Source: Chloroflexota bacterium (GTDB lineage: Bacteria > Chloroflexota > UBA6077). Taken from it: 8,663 nt of DNA. Positions 213 to 8,184 of the stretch are shown here, piece by piece (position 1 is the stretch's first letter; each line of letters begins with the position of its first letter). Location: NCBI GenBank assembly GCA_021788565.1, contig JAJYKO010000175.1, positions 1 through 8,663 on the forward strand, written 5' to 3'. The position numbers were made by a program, and so were the translations under genes. The notes beneath the pieces were generated by a model, which was not told the DNA's origin, did not search any database, and worked only from the letters and a program-made list of their open reading frames with translations.

Positions 213-2267
213 TTACCTCACGGTCACCTTCACGTCCCTGGTCTGGGCACCCTTGGCGGAGAGCCAGCTGAAGTTCTCCTGCACCAGGTCCAGCCGTAAC
301 GTGTACTCCCCGGGAGCGGCGGGCGCGACCACGCTGAGCTGGGAGGTGGCCTGACCGCCGGGGTCCACCTGCTGAGAGAGCTGGCCGTGCTGCTCCGGTA
401 CCTGCACCTCTTTGCCCGCCGCGTCGAGCCAGTGGTACCCCACCCGTACAGGGGTGTAGCCCTCCGCCGGCCACGGGACGTTCCCTACGTTCCGGACCGT
501 AACCTGGAAAGTTGTCCGCTGGCTCGGGGAAAGTTGAGCCGGGACGGCGGCATCCAGCCAGTCGACACTGTACCGAAGAGGTGGGCCGACCCTGTACACC
601 TTGATAGTGGGACCGGGGCGCACTCGATCGAGCACGGTGTAGATGGGCGTGATCTCTTCGTCCATGAGGAACGGGAGCTCGTGGCCGTCGGCAGTCGGGG
701 AGAAGGTCGCCACCAGCGGGAAGCGCTGATTTAGCTCCTGATAGTACTGGATCGCCGAGGCTTTGGCGTCCGGACTCAGGTCGTACCGCGCGTACACGAA
801 GGAGCTGGAGATCAGGTAGTCGAACTTCTCCTGAACGAAGAAATCCAGCGGGTCGACCCGCAGGCTGGGTACGACGTGCAGTGAGTACTTGATGTCCAGC
901 GGCCCCGTCTGCCGCCCCTCACTGTCCAGAAAGGTGTAGCCCTCCAGCGCGATCTTGCTGCCAGGCGGCACGTTCTCCTCAACCCAACGTCCCAGCATCA
1001 CCCTGGTGTCCTCAGCCTTCAGGAGAGAGTCGCTCCTGACATCGAGAACGAGAGAGGGCACAACCATCAGTCCAATCAGAGCCACCGCGAGAACAGCCAC
1101 GGCTTCCCTCGGGGCCACGAGCCTAGCCGATTGCACCACATAAACGGCACCGTAACCCGCGAAGATCGCGATGAATGGAAGCAGCGGGATTGCGAAACGC
1201 GCGTAAAAGAGATTGGACCCCATCAGGAAGAACGCCAGATAGACCACAGGGAACGATGCAAGCAGCAGAACCTCCCTGTGCCGCCGGAACGCCATGACAA
1301 CCACGCCCACGACGCAGGCGACGAGGACGGCGGGGCCCATTCCCACAGACAACACCCTCAGTATCATCCCGGCCATGGAGGTGTCGGAAGTGCTGTATGG
1401 GTCCGCGGTCCAGCGATACTGGGAGGCGAAGTCCTTCAGAAAAGCGGCGGAGTCCAGCAGGGTGTAAGGATTAGCCGCCAGATAGGCCAGTAGGGAGGCC
1501 GCGGCGGCCCCAAGCAGCGGAAGGGCAGATCGGATGTCCCGCAACCGCTGAGACTTCTGCTGCCTCAGCAGATGCGCCGACAGCAGGGCGACCGCCCCCA
1601 GTCCGACGTTGTACTTGGTGGCAACCGCCAGGCCGAGGAAAACGCCGCTGAGGAGGTAGTCTCTTCGCCTTCCTTCGGAGAACACCCGTGTAGCGAAGTA
1701 GACGCTGATCATCAGCAGGAAGGTGGCAGGAACGTCATTGACCGCGTAGTGAGAGTCCCGCACCTGGAGAAAGGCCACTGCCAGCAGCAGGGCGCTCAGC
1801 AGCGCGACTTTTGCGTCCAGCAGCCGCCTGGCAATTAGATAGGTCAGCAGCGCGGTGCCGGTGCCCATAAGCGCGACCTGAGTCCGAACGAGGACGTAGA
1901 GGGGCGTAGGGTCCACCAGCTGTTGCGTACCGATATCGGTGGCGCTGTGGAGAACGCCGAGGAGCTGGCCAGCGTGCAGCAACAGCTGAAGCTCCAACAG
2001 AATGACGTATGTCAGCAGCGGTGGGTTCTCAAAGTAGTGGGGGTTGAGATCCCCGTTCATCAACATGTTGACGGCACGGGCCAGGTACTTGGGCTCGTCG
2101 CCGTGGAACGTGTAGGGCATGCCCCAGCCTATACTCCATATCCTCAGCCCGAATCCGAGGGCAGAGATCAGCAAAATGGCCGCGATTGTTCTCGGCACTT
2201 TCAAGACGGTATTACCTCTGAGAGCCAGCTGATGCATTCGCCTTGTATCGACGGTTATCTTCTCCAT
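213..2267 (-). CDS. GT39/PMT-family membrane glycosyltransferase with C-terminal beta-sandwich domain
   Basis: A 684-residue GT-C type glycosyltransferase, expected to transfer a sugar from a polyprenyl-phosphate donor to an acceptor outside the membrane; donor and acceptor cannot be read from sequence. The first membrane helix is at about 27-45. It is followed by the acidic loop motif FHGDE with D57-E58 (the expected catalytic position in PMT/ArnT-like enzymes), then NPPL at 81-84, DSHYAVNDVP at 171-180, a series of helices, and YARFAIPLLP at 355-364. Residues about 410-560 form a soluble region. Residues about 565-684 look like an Ig-type beta-sandwich (RNVGNVPWP, then GYHWLDAAG, then PGEYTLRLDL). 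The ATG overlaps the upstream gene by 13 nt and lacks a clear ribosome site. M11 (2235-2237, with AAGG just upstream) or the TTG at L22 are possible true starts. It is probably translationally coupled to the YfhO-flippase gene. Confidence 0.88.
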   Translation of the reverse strand: MEKITVDTRRMHQLALRGNTVLKVPRTIAAILLISALGFGLRIWSIGWGMPYTFHGDEPKYLARAVNMLMNGDLNPHYFENPPLLTYVILLELQLLLHAGQLLGVLHSATDIGTQQLVDPTPLYVLVRTQVALMGTGTALLTYLIARRLLDAKVALLSALLLAVAFLQVRDSHYAVNDVPATFLLMISVYFATRVFSEGRRRDYLLSGVFLGLAVATKYNVGLGAVALLSAHLLRQQKSQRLRDIRSALPLLGAAAASLLAYLAANPYTLLDSAAFLKDFASQYRWTADPYSTSDTSMAGMILRVLSVGMGPAVLVACVVGVVVMAFRRHREVLLLASFPVVYLAFFLMGSNLFYARFAIPLLPFIAIFAGYGAVYVVQSARLVAPREAVAVLAVALIGLMVVPSLVLDVRSDSLLKAEDTRVMLGRWVEENVPPGSKIALEGYTFLDSEGRQTGPLDIKYSLHVVPSLRVDPLDFFVQEKFDYLISSSFVYARYDLSPDAKASAIQYYQELNQRFPLVATFSPTADGHELPFLMDEEITPIYTVLDRVRPGPTIKVYRVGPPLRYSVDWLDAAVPAQLSPSQRTTFQVTVRNVGNVPWPAEGYTPVRVGYHWLDAAGKEVQVPEQHGQLSQQVDPGGQATSQLSVVAPAAPGEYTLRLDLVQENFSWLSAKGAQTRDVKVTVR

Positions 2268-5200
2268 GGGAGGGCTTTGCGCAACATCACCATCTCCTCC
2301 TGGTCAAAGGCGCGTAGCGCCAGTAGCCCGGCGCCGTACACTACCGGGGCCAGGGCCACGGCCAGTGGCAAACTCCAGCCACGCAGCAGCCAGACCTCCA
2401 GCCCCATCACAGCCGAGGCCACCAGGGGTCGCCAGAACAGACGCGGCAGGGAGATGGGCGGCAGATGCCGCCGCACACAATACCAGAATGGGACCATCAG
2501 CACCCACTCCGAGAGCACCGTGGAGATCGCCGCACCGACATAGCCAAAGCGCGGGATCAGCAGCAGGTTGGCCGCCAGGTTGAAGGCGGTGGCGATGGCA
2601 AAGCTGAAGGTGATGAACCTCTGCTGATTGATGGCGATCAGCAGGTACTGGGTCACGCCGTTGACGAAGCTGAAGGGCAGGAACCAGATCAAGATTTCCA
2701 GCGCTATTGCCGAGTTGGGCAGATAGTCTGGCCCGCCGAACAAGAGGATGATTTCCGGGGCGATCAGCGTGGCGCCAACGCAGATGGGCAGGCTCACCAT
2801 CAGCAGTAGCTTGAGAGCGAGGCCGAAAGTGCGGGCGAGCGACTCCCTGGATGATTGCGCGTACCGGGAAAACAGCGGGAAAAGCGCCAGCGTGAAGCTG
2901 GAAGAGATAATGCCCAGCCCGTCGATGAACTTGTAGGCGGTGCTGTAGTAGCCCAGAGCAGCGTTGCCCGCGATCGGCTTCAGCATCAGACTGTCCATGC
3001 GGAAGAAGAGCGAGTTAAGCAAACTGTTCAGCATCAGCGGATATGAGACCCTCACCATCTCCCGTGAGAAGCCGAGATTGAACTCCGGCCTCGGTCTGAA
3101 AAGGGCGGCCCTCATCAACCCCAGAAGGGCCAACATGGTCACGAGGTTCACCACCACCGAAACCCCGGCCAGCCCGACGAACCCGAAACCGGCTCCGAGG
3201 GCAGTCACGCCCAGGACGAGCGTGATGACGGTCGTCAGCACGGTGACAGCGGCCGGGTACTCGAACTTCTCGTAGGCCTGGAAGAGGGAACTGAGGGTCC
3301 CGGCCACCATGGATGGCAGGAGGCCAATGGCAAGCAGCAGGATCGCCAATCCGACGTCCGGGGTGACGCCCAGCGGGCCCGAGAGCGGGCCGAGCAGCAT
3401 CCCGACAACCACCATCGCCAGAACCCAGAGGAGCATGCGCGTCGCCAGGGTGTTGCCCAGGTAGCGGTTGGCCGCGGCTCGATCTCGCGCTACTTCGCGG
3501 GTGAGAAGCGTCCCAAGGCCGAAGTTGGCGAGGATATCCAGGTAACCGAGCACCACCACAGCGAAGGCGTACTTCCCAGCGCCCTCCGCACCGAGCACTC
3601 TCAGCATGTACATCGCGAAGCCCATGCTCAGGAGCTTGTTCAGCAGCGAGGTGGCCATGGGAAAGACGGAGTTCTTGGTGAGCCGCTGGATAGTCGAGTC
3701 CGCGCTCCTCGGATAGAACCGCAGAACAGCGACCGAGCCGAGGGCCAGCAGGATCAGGCTGGAGGCCACCATGAAGGCAAACAGCCCCAACTGGAAGGAG
3801 AACGGCTTGAACTCGAAGACCACAGCGTGCTTCCCGGGCAGTAGTTTCACGGCACGGAAGGTATCATCTGCCCTCAAGATCGGTGTATCAACGCCGTCGA
3901 CCGTAGCTCGCCAGCCCGGATAGTAGACATCGGAGAGCACCAGGTAGCTCTCCGCCGTGGCATTGGCGCTTATCTCCACTCTGTTTGGCGTGTACGACGT
4001 GATCAGCGAGTGTTGGGTGCTGGATGTTGGGTACGGGATGCCAGTGGATGCGCCGCTCGATTGCCCGCTCTCCTGCTCTTTCGCTCCCCCTGCCGCCTCA
4101 CCGGTCTGTCCTCTCTCGACGACCACAGTCTCCCTAGGATCGAAGCTCGCAGCGGTCATCTGTCGCAGTGCATCACTCTCGTCGGGTACGTCGACAGCTC
4201 GTTCCACGAGGAAAGCCCGGGGGAGGACGGCTTCGTTTCTGTAGATTCTCACTTCGCCGTCGTAAACTAGGGTGAAGTTGGGTGAGTGTACCGGCCCGAG
4301 ACTCACCAGGTACTTCACATTCAACAGATCGAGCAGTGGCGAGTTCAGCGACGAAGGGTTGAAGATCGATTCGATTCGATTCTGAAGGAGGTACCCTTGC
4401 TGCCCAACTGCTTCCATGTAATTGACGTAGTTTCTCAAGATCAGCGAGTCGTATCCTCGCGCGTCCTGGATCCCGAATGCCATGGGCGCGTCAGGGATCA
4501 GCGCCCTGCCTGGACCGTAGGAGGCGATCCTGAAGATCGATTTATCCTCTTGCAGAAACTTGACAGACGGCGGGGTGAACCTCAGCAAACCAGGGTCCGA
4601 AGCGGTGTTGAAGCCCATGCCAAAATAGAAGAGGTCGGCGATGATGAAGGCCAGCGCGCCGGCCTTCACCCAGCGGTCGCGGCGGAATAGCAGCAGTGTG
4701 AGCACCAACCCTGAGGCCGTCATTAGCAGCGCCAGCAAACCAAGATTCCGGAACTCGTAGAAGAAGAACGCCCTGCCGTCAGGAAAGCCGTGTCTGAGAG
4801 CCGACGAGTGCTGAACGATGAACTGAGCGAGATTGAGGGACGGCTCCGCGAATAGCAGCGCGGCCGCGAGACTGGCCGCGAGGAGAACGCCGCCGCCCAC
4901 GGCCAATCCCGCCACAACGGCAAGGGTGCGCGCGCGCTCATCCACCCACAGTCTGGCTTTACCGATCATATGGGTGGCTGGACGGCCCTCTGCTATCGCC
5001 GAGGCGCCCAGACCCGCGAGGACTGCCACGGCGAAAGTGTAAGGAAATACCCACCGAAATGGGGTATGGAGTTGGTCGTAGCCAGGGATCTCCGAGTAGA
5101 ACGGGCCGTACACGGGGGTGCCGAAGGCTAGGGCGAGAGACAATACCGCCAACAGAGCGAAGAGCCAGGTATAGCGATCGCGCCTCTTCAAGAGGGCAAG

Positions 5201-6577
5201 AGAGGCCAGGAGCAGAGGCAAGATTCCGACGTATCCGGTGCCCTCTATGTAGTTCTTTGCTCCCCAGAAGATCGATTTCACTGGTTGGCCGAAAGAGTTG
5301 ACGGTGACATCGACCTCTTTATTGGCAAGCAGGTCCCAGAAAGAGTGGCGTGTAGGATTGCCGAAGAAGTCGGGCATCAGGAAGGCCACAAGCTGGGTGG
5401 GCCGGTACGCCCATCCGACTACCTGCTCGTACGTAACGGATGATGCGCGGAAGCTGTGGTTCGCCAGCTCGCCAAAGGGCAGAAGCTGGGGAGCCGCGAG
5501 GGCCGCGCCCACCACCACAAGCCCTGACAAAGCGAGGGCCGTGAGGAGTGAGGAGCGGGAGGCGAGAAAGATAGATGCCTTCTTCTCGCTCCCAGCTTCT
5601 CGCTTCTCCCTACTAAGTACCGACCTCGCGCGATCCAAGTTGTGCCACGTCCCCACGATCAGCCGGCCCGCCGCGTAGAAGCCGGTGGTTGCCAACAGGT
5701 AGCCGCTGATCTCCATGTGACCCGCCAGGAACTGAATGCCGACCGCGGACGCGAACACCACCGCCCACAGGACCCCCTTTATGAGCCGCGTTCCGGACGA
5801 GGGCTGAGGACTGGAGACTGAGGATTGATCGCTGATAGGCAAAACCCGTTCGCCGCTTGCAGTTCGCTGTTCATTTTCGGTTATCAGGCAAATGAGTTTC
5901 TCCGTGGCCAGGAGCACCAGGGGCAGCCACACCGCCACGCCGATAACCATTGGCCAGATGAAGCTCACCACCATGAAACCGCTGAACGCGAAGGTGATGC
6001 CGCTCACTGCCGCGCCGAACCGGCTGGAGCCTATGGCGCGGAGGAAGGCAAAAGTGAAGATACCAGCGAGCGCTACGTGCAGAGCCGTGTAGAGGCTGTA
6101 TGCCTGGGCGAGAGGCACAACCAGGAAGATGATCCCCAGTGGATACAGCACTCCGGCTTGGCCGGCCGCCAGAAACGGCTGGCCGGCCAGGATGTATGGA
6201 TTCCAGAAGGGGATCTGCCCTGCTGCGAGCGAGTCCCGCAAGAACTTCTTCCATTCGTAGTTCTGCAGGACGGCGTCGCTAAGCAGCTCGTTGTGGGGAA
6301 AAGAGATGCCGAACTGGGCGGCGTAGCTATCCCAAGGCGGGTATGAATAGAGGTTGTCGGCAGGTAATAGGACCTTGCCGGTGAAGAGAGTCTGGTATAG
6401 AAAGATGACCGCCAGTCCGGCGAATCCGAGGCAGACGGCGAGCACGGAGAAGTTGGACGCGAGAGACGATAAACGAGAAGCGAGCGGCGAGGAGCTAGAA
6501 GAGGCCTTTTTACTTTCTTCTCGCTTGCTGTCGTCCGCTGCTTGCGCTTCACCGATCGCCGCTGGCTCCCCGCTCAC
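2255..6577 (-). CDS. YfhO-like membrane protein fused to a Wzx/RfbX-type polysaccharide flippase
   Basis: One uninterrupted 1440-residue frame. Residues 1-955 are YfhO-like: helix at about 43-63; conserved outer loop with LPADNLYSYPPW (D74) and GQIPFWNPYILAGQPF (120-135); many helices; and a soluble C-terminal part ending in YYPGWRATVDG (885-895) and LPGKHAVVFEF (913-923) before a last helix (930-950). YfhO proteins are GT-C-like; Bacillus YfhO is linked to glycosylation of teichoic acid. Residues about 961-1440 are a full-length flippase of the MOP superfamily: STIQRLTKNS, LGAEGAGKYAF (995-1005), FGLGTLLTREVARD (1019-1032), FFRMDSLML (1191-1199), ALFPLFSRY (1231-1239) and IPRFGYVGAAISTV (1341-1354). 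The junction lacks a Met; the first internal Met, M974, lies inside the first flippase helix and has no ribosome site. The start is GTG (6575-6577), directly after the pepA stop, and no other start precedes the first helix. Four heptamer-repeat islands interrupt the YfhO half at residues about 10-39, 232-262, 318-346 and 828-856. Confidence 0.87.
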   Translation of the reverse strand: MSGEPAAIGEAQAADDSKREESKKASSSSSPLASRLSSLASNFSVLAVCLGFAGLAVIFLYQTLFTGKVLLPADNLYSYPPWDSYAAQFGISFPHNELLSDAVLQNYEWKKFLRDSLAAGQIPFWNPYILAGQPFLAAGQAGVLYPLGIIFLVVPLAQAYSLYTALHVALAGIFTFAFLRAIGSSRFGAAVSGITFAFSGFMVVSFIWPMVIGVAVWLPLVLLATEKLICLITENEQRTASGERVLPISDQSSVSSPQPSSGTRLIKGVLWAVVFASAVGIQFLAGHMEISGYLLATTGFYAAGRLIVGTWHNLDRARSVLSREKREAGSEKKASIFLASRSSLLTALALSGLVVVGAALAAPQLLPFGELANHSFRASSVTYEQVVGWAYRPTQLVAFLMPDFFGNPTRHSFWDLLANKEVDVTVNSFGQPVKSIFWGAKNYIEGTGYVGILPLLLASLALLKRRDRYTWLFALLAVLSLALAFGTPVYGPFYSEIPGYDQLHTPFRWVFPYTFAVAVLAGLGASAIAEGRPATHMIGKARLWVDERARTLAVVAGLAVGGGVLLAASLAAALLFAEPSLNLAQFIVQHSSALRHGFPDGRAFFFYEFRNLGLLALLMTASGLVLTLLLFRRDRWVKAGALAFIIADLFYFGMGFNTASDPGLLRFTPPSVKFLQEDKSIFRIASYGPGRALIPDAPMAFGIQDARGYDSLILRNYVNYMEAVGQQGYLLQNRIESIFNPSSLNSPLLDLLNVKYLVSLGPVHSPNFTLVYDGEVRIYRNEAVLPRAFLVERAVDVPDESDALRQMTAASFDPRETVVVERGQTGEAAGGAKEQESGQSSGASTGIPYPTSSTQHSLITSYTPNRVEISANATAESYLVLSDVYYPGWRATVDGVDTPILRADDTFRAVKLLPGKHAVVFEFKPFSFQLGLFAFMVASSLILLALGSVAVLRFYPRSADSTIQRLTKNSVFPMATSLLNKLLSMGFAMYMLRVLGAEGAGKYAFAVVVLGYLDILANFGLGTLLTREVARDRAAANRYLGNTLATRMLLWVLAMVVVGMLLGPLSGPLGVTPDVGLAILLLAIGLLPSMVAGTLSSLFQAYEKFEYPAAVTVLTTVITLVLGVTALGAGFGFVGLAGVSVVVNLVTMLALLGLMRAALFRPRPEFNLGFSREMVRVSYPLMLNSLLNSLFFRMDSLMLKPIAGNAALGYYSTAYKFIDGLGIISSSFTLALFPLFSRYAQSSRESLARTFGLALKLLLMVSLPICVGATLIAPEIILLFGGPDYLPNSAIALEILIWFLPFSFVNGVTQYLLIAINQQRFITFSFAIATAFNLAANLLLIPRFGYVGAAISTVLSEWVLMVPFWYCVRRHLPPISLPRLFWRPLVASAVMGLEVWLLRGWSLPLAVALAPVVYGAGLLALRAFDQEEMVMLRKALPWRR
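4011..4094. repeat. Degenerate heptamer-repeat island D, in frame
   Basis: Twelve 7-bp units can be laid end to end over 84 bp. The first four are the clearest, for example TGTTGGG at 4011-4017 and again at 4025-4031, with TGCTGGA (4018-4024) and TACGGGA (4032-4038) between and after. The second half is pyrimidine-rich, for example TGCTCTT (4074-4080) and TCGCTCC (4081-4087). It encodes residues about 828-856 of the fusion, a Gly/Ser/Thr/Gln-rich stretch (ESGQSSGASTGIPYPTSS) just before the conserved YfhO C-terminal segment. 84 bp is 28 codons, so the frame is kept. The exact edges are my choice. Confidence 0.6.
5541..5624. repeat. Degenerate heptamer-repeat island C, in frame, with hairpin
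   Basis: This is the clearest island. The unit GTGAGGA occurs twice in a row (5541-5554), followed by GCGGGAG and GCGAGAA (5555-5568). Then come TTCTCGC (5583-5589), TCCCAGC, TTCTCGC again (5597-5603) and TTCTCCC (5604-5610). Strand polarity changes from purine-rich to pyrimidine-rich midway. Positions 5557-5568 can pair with 5583-5593 as an 11-bp stem with one bulged G and a 14-base loop. It encodes residues about 318-346 of the fusion (RSVLSREKREAGSEKK and onward), a charged loop between membrane helices. Total length is 84 bp or 28 codons. Confidence 0.68.
5794..5882. repeat. Degenerate heptamer-repeat island B, in frame
   Basis: The first half is six units resembling GG-N-CTGA: GGGCTGA (5801-5807), GGACTGG (5808-5814), AGACTGA (5815-5821), GGATTGA (5822-5828) and TCGCTGA (5829-5835), preceded by CGGACGA. 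A 12-base spacer follows, then units resembling GTTCGCN: GTTCGCC (5848-5854), GCTTGCA, GTTCGCT (5862-5868) and GTTCATT. It encodes residues about 232-262, a polar stretch (NEQRTASGERVLPISDQSSV and on) between a membrane helix ending near 228 and the next starting near 266. Confidence 0.65.
6462..6548. repeat. Degenerate heptamer-repeat island A near the start of the YfhO-flippase gene
   Basis: Six phased units of the form N-N-N-N-[AG]CG or close: AGAGACG (6462-6468), ATAAACG, AGAAGCG (6476-6482), AGCGGCG (6483-6489), AGGAGCT and AGAAGAG. They are followed by a looser pyrimidine-rich half (6505-6548) containing TTCTCGC- and GCTTGC-like words. It encodes residues about 10-39, the Lys/Glu/Ser-rich cytoplasmic tail (SKREESKKASSSSS) before the first membrane helix. 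AAGCGAG (6478-6484) is an inverted match to CTCGCTT (6520-6526). Confidence 0.58.
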
Positions 6578-6587
6578 CTATCCTTCC
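6575..6587 (-). promoter_or_regulatory. Abutting stop/start with ribosome site: pepA TAG followed by GTG
   Basis: On the minus strand the order is GGAAGGA (6581-6587), TAG stop of pepA (6578-6580), GTG start (6575-6577). The purine-rich ribosome site lies inside the last pepA codons with only the stop between it and the GTG. The spacing is short, which suits re-initiation by a ribosome finishing pepA, that is, translational coupling. This decides the GTG start, because no other start codon lies ahead of the first membrane helix. Confidence 0.6.
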
Positions 6588-8098
6588 GCCTGCTTCTGCA
6601 CGAACTCCATGAGTAGACGGGCACCGAAGCCGGTCGGCCCTTTCGGAAGGTACGACTTCGACATCACCACCTGGTCGGAATCGATCCACGCGACGCCCGC
6701 TATGTCCAGGTGCGCCCACTTCGCCTTGTCCACGAACAGGGAAAGCAGCAGCGCGCCGACCTGCGCCCCCGCCTGCCGGCCGCCGGAGTTCTTGATGTCC
6801 GCGAACTCGCTCTTCACCTGCTCCCACAGATACTCTTCCCACATTGGCAGCGGCCACAGTCGCTCTCCGACGCGATCTCCCGTGTCCTGGAGCTGCCGCA
6901 TCAGCGCATCGTCGTTGCCTATAAGGCCCGCCCCGCCGGTCCCGAGCGCCGTCACGACCGCGCCCGTCAGGGTCGCGAGGTCCACCACCGGGTCCGCTCC
7001 TTGCTGCACCGCGTAGGCGAGCGCATCGGCGAGTACCAGCCGGCCCTCGGCGTCGGTGCTGATCACCTCGATGGTCTTTCCGTTCATCGCCCTTATGATG
7101 TCGCCGGGCCGGAAGGCGTTGCCGCCGGGCAGGTTCTCGGCAAGGGCCATGACGCCGAGGACGTTCGCCTTCGGCTTGAGCTCGGCGATCCCCTGCATGG
7201 CCCCCAGCACGGCCGCCGCTCCCGACTTGTCGTATTTCATCCGATCCATGTTCTGAGAGGGCTTGATGGAGATGCCCCCGCTGTCGAAGGTGATCCCCTT
7301 GCCCACCAGGCCGACGAGCTTCTGACTACCGGGATCGCCCTTGTACCAGAGCGCGACCATCCGCGGCGGATGGACGCTGCCCTGCCCCACGGCCATGATG
7401 GCTCCCATGCCCATTTCCTGCATCTCGTCCGGCCCCATCACCCGGCAATCCAGACCGTATCGGGCCGCCAGCTCCCGGGCTCGCTCGGCGACGTACTCCG
7501 GCGTTCCCAGATTCGGGGGGGCGGCGGCGATATCTCGGGCCGTCACCGTCGCGGCAGCGAAAACTTCGCCTCGCCGGATGCCCTCCTCGATCTCAGGTAC
7601 CTTCGCCACGTCCATCTCCACGAGGGTCATCCGCTCGACCTCGCCACGTGCCGGCCCCATGGTCTTGAACTGCCGGTAGCCATACGAAGCTAGGATCGCC
7701 CCTTCAGCCATCGCCTGCGCACACTCCGTCGGGCTCAACCCCCCTGCCCCGGCGCCGTGAACCACACTGCAAAAGCTCCCTAGACCCAGGTCTCGCACCT
7801 TCTTGAAGAGGCTTCCAGAAGCCCTTCGGATGGCGTCGAGGTCGAACTTTTCCTGCTTGCCCAGACCCACCACCGCGACGCGGCCGGCCTTCAGCGTTCC
7901 GCCAGTGTGGATTATGGTGACCTCACCGAGCGAGCCCTTGATCTCCCCGTCCGCGATCAACTGGGAGATGAGTCCTGCCAAAGCGCCATCGACGGCGGCT
8001 GTGGCGCCGCCGGGCTGGGTCATTCCCTCGAAGATGTTGACCGCCACCAGCGGCGTTTCGACCTCGGTTACCGAGCCCTGTCGCGCCACGATTTCCAT
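6578..8098 (-). CDS. pepA: Leucyl aminopeptidase (M17 family, PepA)
   Basis: A 506-residue cytosolic aminopeptidase that removes N-terminal residues from peptides using two metal ions; family members work as hexamers and are usually about 500 residues. An N-terminal macro-like domain (about 1-165) precedes the catalytic domain. The expected site residues are all present: K267 and D272 in GKGITFDSGG, K279 in SIKPS, D290 in KYDKSG, and D349, E351 and R353 in STDAEGRL. All are offset by three from the E. coli PepA numbering I remember (K270, D275, K282, D293, D352, E354, R356). The family signature usually begins with Asn; here it is Ser347. The ATG follows an excellent ribosome site. Some E. 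coli-type PepA proteins also bind DNA in recombination and regulation, but nothing here tests that. It is an odd neighbour for envelope genes, yet its stop abuts the next start. Confidence 0.95.
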   Translation of the reverse strand: MEIVARQGSVTEVETPLVAVNIFEGMTQPGGATAAVDGALAGLISQLIADGEIKGSLGEVTIIHTGGTLKAGRVAVVGLGKQEKFDLDAIRRASGSLFKKVRDLGLGSFCSVVHGAGAGGLSPTECAQAMAEGAILASYGYRQFKTMGPARGEVERMTLVEMDVAKVPEIEEGIRRGEVFAAATVTARDIAAAPPNLGTPEYVAERARELAARYGLDCRVMGPDEMQEMGMGAIMAVGQGSVHPPRMVALWYKGDPGSQKLVGLVGKGITFDSGGISIKPSQNMDRMKYDKSGAAAVLGAMQGIAELKPKANVLGVMALAENLPGGNAFRPGDIIRAMNGKTIEVISTDAEGRLVLADALAYAVQQGADPVVDLATLTGAVVTALGTGGAGLIGNDDALMRQLQDTGDRVGERLWPLPMWEEYLWEQVKSEFADIKNSGGRQAGAQVGALLLSLFVDKAKWAHLDIAGVAWIDSDQVVMSKSYLPKGPTGFGARLLMEFVQKQAEG

Positions 8099-8112: not shown

Positions 8113-8184
8113 CGTAGGGCGGGGCGCTCTGCCCCTCCGCGTGCTTTCGGCAACGGCCGGCAGGGCACAGGGCCCAGCCCTACG
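8113..8184. repeat. 72-bp imperfect palindrome (MITE/REP-like) ahead of pepA
   Basis: The 27-base arms at 8113-8139 and 8158-8184 are inverted copies matching at 22 of 27 positions, with an 18-base loop. The outer 8 bp (CGTAGGGC and GCCCTACG) are perfect. On RNA it would form one long GC-rich hairpin, ending right at the pepA ribosome site and starting 18 bases after the upstream stop codon. No T-run follows, so it is not a typical intrinsic terminator. The size and ends resemble small palindromic repeats dispersed between genes in many bacteria. I saw no clear target-site duplication and no second copy in this window. Confidence 0.6.

Follow-up and report, generated by a model that had tools for sequence, protein, structure and literature searches.

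How do repeats with a unit of seven nucleotides come to lie, in frame, inside a protein-coding gene? This question is raised by an 8,663-nt stretch of a Chloroflexota bacterium genome (contig JAJYKO010000175.1, hereafter the window), in which an initial annotation made from the letters alone had marked four islands of degenerate heptamer repeats within the gene of a membrane protein that joins a YfhO-type part to a polysaccharide flippase. As claimed there, all four islands keep frame, lying within one intact open reading frame (ORF; 2255-6577, minus strand). We argue that they are probably degenerate heptamer passengers resembling the short tandemly repeated repetitive (STRR) sequences of cyanobacteria, sharing a two-part layout and tolerated in-frame as passive linkers in variable regions of a membrane protein. 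Repeats of this kind are already known; what is new, as read from protein sequences, is that heptamer-decodable peptides recur in the variable regions of 10 of 118 homologues, often with other words. The islands and a fifth variable loop of the same minus-strand gene are as follows:

4011-4094: island 1 (weak), TGTTGGG-type units at 4011-4040 (CCCAACA on the gene strand, cyclic peptide PNTQHPT), the remainder without significant period 7
5541-5624: island 2, GTGAGGA/GCGAGAA units, then TTCTCGC units; on the gene strand SREKREAGSEKK, then FLASRSSLL
5794-5882: island 3, GGACTGA-type, then TTCGCTG-type units; on the gene strand NEQRTAS (word SEQRTAN), then SSVSSPQ (word SVLSPQS)
6462-6548: island 4, at the N-terminus if translation begins at the upstream GTG (see below), GCGAGAA-type, then TTCTCGC-type units; on the gene strand SKREESKKAS, then PLASRLSSLAS
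4916-4954: fifth variable loop (residues 542-554), without an island in the window; heptamer-type peptides in the homologues P0033, P0058, P0064, P0107 and P0109

Periodicity, polarity and mutual similarity of the islands

Periodicity was measured as self-matches at lag 7 and compared with shuffles in which only synonymous codons were swapped within the gene, so that protein and codon usage were kept. Island 2 gave 41/77 lag-7 matches (p=0.001), island 3 gave 45/82, equalled by 0 of 2000 shuffles, and island 4 gave 39/80 (p=0.0005); the gene's three strongest lag-7 peaks overlap these same islands and were reached gene-wide by 2, 0 and 2 of 1000 shuffles, respectively. At lags 4, 5, 8, 10, 11, 13 and 14 no peak rose above the shuffles' 99th percentile for the gene; the window, like coding DNA in general, does peak at lags divisible by three. 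The 7-bp periodicity first ascribed to all four islands thus exceeds chance in islands 2-4, and in island 1 it is confined to 4011-4040, where about 30 bp form a clear TGTTGGG-type repeat (Tandem Repeats Finder score 46).

The purine-to-pyrimidine switch that had been noted in every island was borne out, with switch values (D) of +0.43, +0.71, +0.37 and +0.63 for islands 1-4, and a convergent heptamer layout, in which a purine-rich array is followed by a pyrimidine-rich one, was found in 4/4 islands. The sign of the switch is identical on both strands. The window has a positive bias of its own: of its 1472 positions away from the islands, D is at least +0.37 at 1.6% and as low as -0.37 at 0.1%, and the repeat-free position 5182 also yields D = +0.43 (84-nt windows).

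Islands 2 and 4 look related in sequence: in an inverted alignment they agree at 33/44 positions (p<0.001 when unit order is shuffled and 0.006 when shuffling stays within halves; orientation chosen after prior unshuffled pair scores). Aligned directly, they match less well (p=0.008 and 0.096, respectively). The shared positions contradict the earlier view that each island has a vocabulary of its own. Neither islands 3 and 4 (p=0.054 and 0.109) nor islands 1 and 4 (p=0.103 and 0.418) are alike beyond such shuffles, and pairs 1-2, 1-3 and 2-3 were compared by unshuffled scores only. A single sequence behind all four islands is not supported, likeness among the shuffle-tested pairs being limited to 2 and 4. 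What survives of the proposal of a distinct repeat family inserted four times is the likeness of islands 2 and 4; islands 1 and 3 resemble island 4 no more than shuffles do, and the two-part layout is general, recurring in a genome of the cyanobacterial phylum (G023), in IMG/VR contigs and in Xanthomonas (see below).

Treated as single-stranded DNA, island 2 folds better than shuffles (z -2.6) and is an imperfect palindrome, whereas the folding of island 4 is no better than that of shuffles (z -0.8) and islands 1 and 3 fold worse; self-complementarity is present in island 2, not above shuffles in island 4 and absent from islands 1 and 3. A hairpin role for all islands is not supported, as islands 1, 3 and 4 have no fold above shuffles.

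Extra in-frame sequence and heptamer-coded peptides among homologues

The window protein was compared with 119 homologues, comprising all listed matches (best 120 of 976) apart from P0001, which is the protein of the window itself. Islands 4, 3, 2 and 1 have a mean occupancy of 0.14, 0.32, 0.31 and 0.52 versus 0.91 overall, and identity at the islands is 0.10-0.21 versus 0.45 overall; because of this low occupancy, most homologues can be said to lack islands 2-4 and about half to lack island 1. The excess over the homologue median is 35, 25, 24 and 15 aa for islands 4, 3, 2 and 1 (the regions of islands 3, 2 and 1 measure 64, 48 and 52 aa versus medians of 39, 24 and 37), and such non-uniform lengths do not bear out the idea of a 28-codon length kept by selection. 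The closest homologue among these matches, P0002 (81% identical), has the same region lengths as the window at islands 1-3 and is shorter at island 4; it is identical at 6/17, 18/31, 14/29 and 10/28 island residues (islands 4, 3, 2 and 1) versus 1162/1426 over the whole protein, and reads PNTQYP at island 1. At the protein level the alignment supports reading the islands as extra in-frame sequence that most homologues do without, or about half of them in the case of island 1, placed N-terminally or in variable regions amid conserved parts.

An AlphaFold model of residues 1-960 (window and 39 homologues, mean predicted local distance difference test (pLDDT) 85.9) puts pLDDT below 50 at residues 1-12, 137-139, 248-252 (island 3), 532-538 (region of the fifth loop) and 825-854 (island 1), and at 54-55 over residues 11-30 (island 4), with the second half of island 4 modelled as a helix. 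These predicted values fit disorder of islands 1 and 3 and of the start of island 4. Codon usage is also atypical, clearly so for islands 3 and 4: GC content at third codon positions (GC3) is 0.50, 0.48, 0.66 and 0.69 for islands 4, 3, 2 and 1 versus 0.79 elsewhere in the gene; values down to those of islands 3 and 4 occur in none of the other 30-codon windows, while 14% of these fall to the level of island 1.

Since 7 is coprime to 3, a stop-free array of one heptamer encodes the same cyclic heptapeptide in all three frames, and whether it is tolerated therefore hinges on its word and strand rather than on the frame of entry. In this code GAGAAGC reads EKREARS and its complement ASRFSLL, AGCGAAC reads SEQRTAN, TCAGTCC reads SVLSPQS and CCCAACA reads PNTQHPT, and by their sequence the island peptides may be read as worn versions of the cyclic heptapeptides EKREARS/ASRFSLL, SEQRTAN/SVLSPQS and PNTQHPT. 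We scored each 14-residue segment of the window protein and of the 119 homologues against the translations of 11,260 stop-free heptamers, with the reversed proteins as control, a test that is applicable to any proteome. At scores of at least 11 there were 51 forward segments versus 1 reversed (P0068 included on both sides). This low-complexity homologue, whose island 3 region scores 13 forward and 11 reversed, was left out of the counts of separate matches, which thus cover 118 homologues. Separate matches numbered 12 forward and 0 reversed at a score of at least 11, and 19 forward at a score of at least 10, all inside five variable regions that make up 14.5% of residues (boundaries taken from anchors of the earlier homologue alignment), versus 4 reversed, 3 of which fall in region 525-600, the region of the fifth loop. 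At a score of at least 9 the totals were 60 versus 39, with 37 versus 16 inside the regions and 23 versus 23 outside, so the excess sits in the variable regions. A few of the 19 matches may be due to chance, most likely in region 525-600.

The 19 matches come from the window and 10/118 homologues: P0002 has 4, P0003 (61% identical) has 3, P0024, P0033 and P0058 have 2 each, and P0009, P0012, P0064, P0107, P0109 and the window have 1 each, those of P0002 and the window being mutually non-independent. Only island 4 passes 10 in the window, with 11 of 14, while islands 3, 2 and 1 reach 9, 8 and 7; P0002 scores 11 at island 3 and 10 at island 1. As controls, 120 M17 peptidases (a smaller set of segments) gave 1 forward and 0 reversed segments at a score of at least 10, and a pentamer code applied to the 119 homologues gave 3 forward and 3 reversed. 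Words often vary among homologues within one region: the island 3 region of P0003 reads SVISHQS and GLRTQDS, and region 525-600 reads IADCRLQ in P0064 and SVLSPQS in P0033.

Other repeat-like inserts were seen in region 525-600 of P0010, P0115, P0120 and P0101 and in the island 3 region of P0068 and P0109, examples being HSERSEES...FAALRMT (P0010), LAPLRMT/LASLRMS (P0115) and SPSP...GEG-type stretches. Judging by these inserts, the regions may accept several kinds of repeat.

Heptamer islands in other genomes and published systems

Relatives of the YfhO protein were found at a single locus in assembled genome contigs, L001 of Geminocystis, and in 10 plasmid records, none of which covers more than 21% of the query; viral contigs gave no match. 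The relative encoded at L001, on a contig of a Geminocystis metagenome-assembled genome (MAG) with coverage 2.0, is 32% identical, and a Pfam YfhO search of the same genome gave no match at E 0.001. A GGACTGA pattern occurred in 0/59 genomes of the cyanobacterial phylum, and the reversed control pattern was abundant in one of them, G023, which belongs to the same phylum as the Geminocystis MAG of L001 and was picked for its abundance of a heptamer pattern. In 280 kb of G023 we counted 109 lag-7 peaks at threshold 30, versus at most 13 at any other lag tested, with D at or above +0.4 in 34/109 and at or below -0.4 in 5/109 (random positions: 154 and 145 of 4000). Neighbouring peaks can share an island, and 24 distinct switch-aligned sequences were left in the composition set. 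Dense heptamer islands (L056 and L066 of G049, L069-L082 of G023) often combine different words in their purine and pyrimidine halves with a switch point rich in AT.

From IMG/VR, three exact heptamer patterns based on the islands retrieved 36 loci (22, 12 and 2), several of them mutual copies. A pattern-free scan of these loci, with 25-mer sharers merged, gave 36 lag-7 peaks, of which 8 had D at or above +0.4 and 0 at or below -0.4, compared with 100 and 60 of 3000 random positions and with 1-3 and 1-2 at control lags. With a flanks-only duplicate rule and threshold 29, 22 of 51 islands lie inside ORFs of at least 100 aa; with duplicates kept, 32/55 lie in ORFs versus 83% of random windows. 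SEKREAR peptides like those of the window occur in loci L027 and L034, partly owing to the choice of pattern. L029, L013, L016, L019 and L035 hold convergent heptamer palindromes, by eye at gene boundaries and each with its own words, and in L029 and L019, for example, near-perfect convergent islands appear on inspection to sit between a stop codon and the next start. In 50 of the 918 kb of a Thermomicrobium roseum plasmid there was one weak lag-7 peak. Two-part islands thus recur in G023 and IMG/VR contigs, with the same sign favoured in both (34 versus 5 and 8 versus 0). Heptamer islands generally have the two-part layout, and what sets those of the window apart from G023 is that they reside in coding sequence.

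Published systems are compared here as they appear in excerpts of the papers cited. Heptameric repeats are described as overrepresented among the simple repeats of many bacterial genomes and little studied further (PMC4692102). In cyanobacteria, STRR usually have 7-bp units and can fold into a hairpin (PMC2670836). Those of filamentous species share with the window degenerate 7-bp units and several words side by side, and G023 shares with it the purine-to-pyrimidine switch; unlike the mainly intergenic heptameric STRR and simple sequence repeats, the window islands all lie in ORF 2255-6577, although island 4 is perhaps upstream of the start. The islands can be called STRR-like by their grammar, and are not cyanobacterial STRR in the narrow sense, because the named homologues are nearly all Chloroflexota (organism labels are Chloroflexota, Chloroflexi, Anaerolineae or Dehalococcoidia MAGs, with the exception of one M17 homologue from Sphingomonadaceae). 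The TAACTGA heptamers of Beggiatoaceae likewise form arrays, some within ORFs, but consist of one fixed word, are mostly intergenic and in ORFs lie mainly at protein peripheries, one orientation giving stops in all three frames and the other a repeating peptide (PMC4679880), whereas the window has several words, interior regions and several islands per gene. Heptamers also make up the GGGAATC repeats of Xanthomonas, with 70 and 75 convergent pairs in two species, and the GGGGA(C/T)T repeats of Nostoc, which unlike those of the window are consensus words forming G-quadruplexes (PMC4692102).

Rickettsia palindromic elements, which the initial annotation had named beside cyanobacterial STRR as the nearest parallel, fit less well than STRR-like heptamers: they too lie in-frame in protein genes, but they are about 150 bp long with a conserved peptide, the excerpt of PMC10969869 mentions no 7-bp period, and among the pairs tested in the window likeness is confined to islands 2 and 4. 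Borg tandem repeats resemble the islands in lying inside ORFs, where they create disordered regions, often of membrane or extracellular proteins, but are nearly perfect with in-ORF units divisible by three, whereas the window has degenerate units of 7 (PMC9879509). Among the literature matches listed, no title or start of an abstract names in-frame heptamer islands in YfhO or Chloroflexota proteins, which is weak evidence of absence, and none of the matches describes recurrent entry of multi-word heptamers into a few regions of one protein family.

Origin of the islands and their genomic setting

If the islands are tolerated passengers, as we think probable, their layout of a purine-rich heptamer array, a short spacer and a pyrimidine-rich array would form or spread mostly between genes, and occasionally such a pre-formed array would enter a coding sequence. 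Survival would be limited to words that are free of stops and sit where the protein tolerates them, the net length would be trimmed to a multiple of three and the array would then decay, with no DNA-level function required. Among the alternatives, the least improbable, though still unlikely, is growth of the arrays in place, through strand slippage where constraint is weak and with no insertion involved; the tendency of each region and lineage to have its own words would agree with this, as would a proposal, related in PMC4679880, by which the polymerase might interact with a length of 7 nt, but slipping by one 7-nt unit breaks the frame, so that growth within a gene needs three-unit steps, and simple slippage would not predict the purine-to-pyrimidine switch. 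Slightly less credible is a mobile palindromic element of the Rickettsia kind that entered the gene repeatedly, each time as a whole copy. The positions shared by islands 2 and 4 (in an orientation picked afterwards), the imperfect palindrome of island 2 and the repeat-like inserts in the same regions of relatives such as P0010 speak for it, but islands 1 and 3 neither resemble island 4 beyond shuffles nor fold, and the words vary between regions and homologues.

It is very improbable that the islands work at the DNA or RNA level, forming hairpins to adjust transcription or mRNA, with the peptide as a by-product: transcript stability, coupling or termination have been suggested as roles for cyanobacterial STRR (PMC2670836), island 2 has a hairpin and island 4 adjoins the boundary of two co-directional genes, but the folding of the other three islands is no better or even worse than that of shuffles, and islands 1-3 lie deep within the ORF. 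Least plausible of all is that these are ordinary low-complexity linkers selected at the protein level, with a coincidental period of 7. Ser/Glu/Arg-rich loops are common in membrane proteins, and at the lowest score (at least 9) reversed proteins also match often (39 versus 60), but for islands 2-4 this explanation is contradicted by the synonymous shuffles, by the forward/reversed test at 10 and 11 and by the pentamer and M17 controls.

Several observations weigh against tolerated heptamer passengers as the account of all four islands. Over its whole span island 1 shows no period 7 (27/77 lag-7 matches, p=0.42; lag 14, p=0.037). Island 2 (residues 318-346) cannot be called disordered, because the model places much of it in helices with a pLDDT minimum of 66 at residues 321-330; its GC3 is within the ordinary range, 8% of other 30-codon windows being as low, and its region yields no homologue match at a score of at least 10. 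Conversely, the low-pLDDT loop at residues 137-139 is no island. No match at that score was found in 108/118 scored homologues. Coding residence is not the rule in G023, where 1/95 heptamer islands lies inside an ORF of at least 100 aa versus 75% of random windows, unlike the window with all four in one ORF. Finally, the true start may be downstream of island 4, which would then be untranslated; translation of the island is uncertain because P0001, the 1396-aa database protein of the window's contig, begins at residue 45, downstream of the island.

On the passenger reading, one protein family would record repeated heptamer entry into a few variable coding regions, with words differing among homologues, and would offer a test bed for how repeat DNA turns into protein and why heptamer arrays so often run from purine to pyrimidine. 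A far bolder proposal, which we hold to be doubtful, is that purine-to-pyrimidine heptamer islands of different phyla belong to a single class of DNA that spreads itself and is recognisable by its grammar (period 7 and switch) rather than its sequence. Such islands would readily invade genes, since a heptamer without stops encodes one and the same peptide whichever frame it enters. The class would be a continuing source of new flexible protein segments and a living case of an idea of Ohno, who reportedly held that oligomer repeats of a length not divisible by three can found coding sequence.

The host gene is flanked on both sides by genes on the same strand:

213-2267, minus strand: PMT-type glycosyltransferase (ORF list and Pfam)
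2255-6577, minus strand: fusion of YfhO-type membrane protein and polysaccharide flippase (Pfam YfhO, Polysacc_synt, MurJ and MatE)
6578-8098, minus strand: M17 leucyl aminopeptidase (ORF list and Pfam)

Within 6443-6577 the fusion gene has two candidate GTG starts, one directly behind the M17 stop codon and the other at residue 45, giving 1440 aa from the GTG at 6577 or 1396 aa from residue 45. GGAAGGA lies 3 bases ahead of the upstream GTG, a spacing tighter than usual, and 9/12 of the first residues from this start are identical to P0002. An Rfam scan of the window returned nothing at gathering thresholds. Upstream of the M17 gene, an intergenic inverted repeat at 8113-8184 (CGTAGGGC...GCCCTACG), with arms of 27 nt that are 81% complementary and 18 nt apart, is unlike the heptamer islands.

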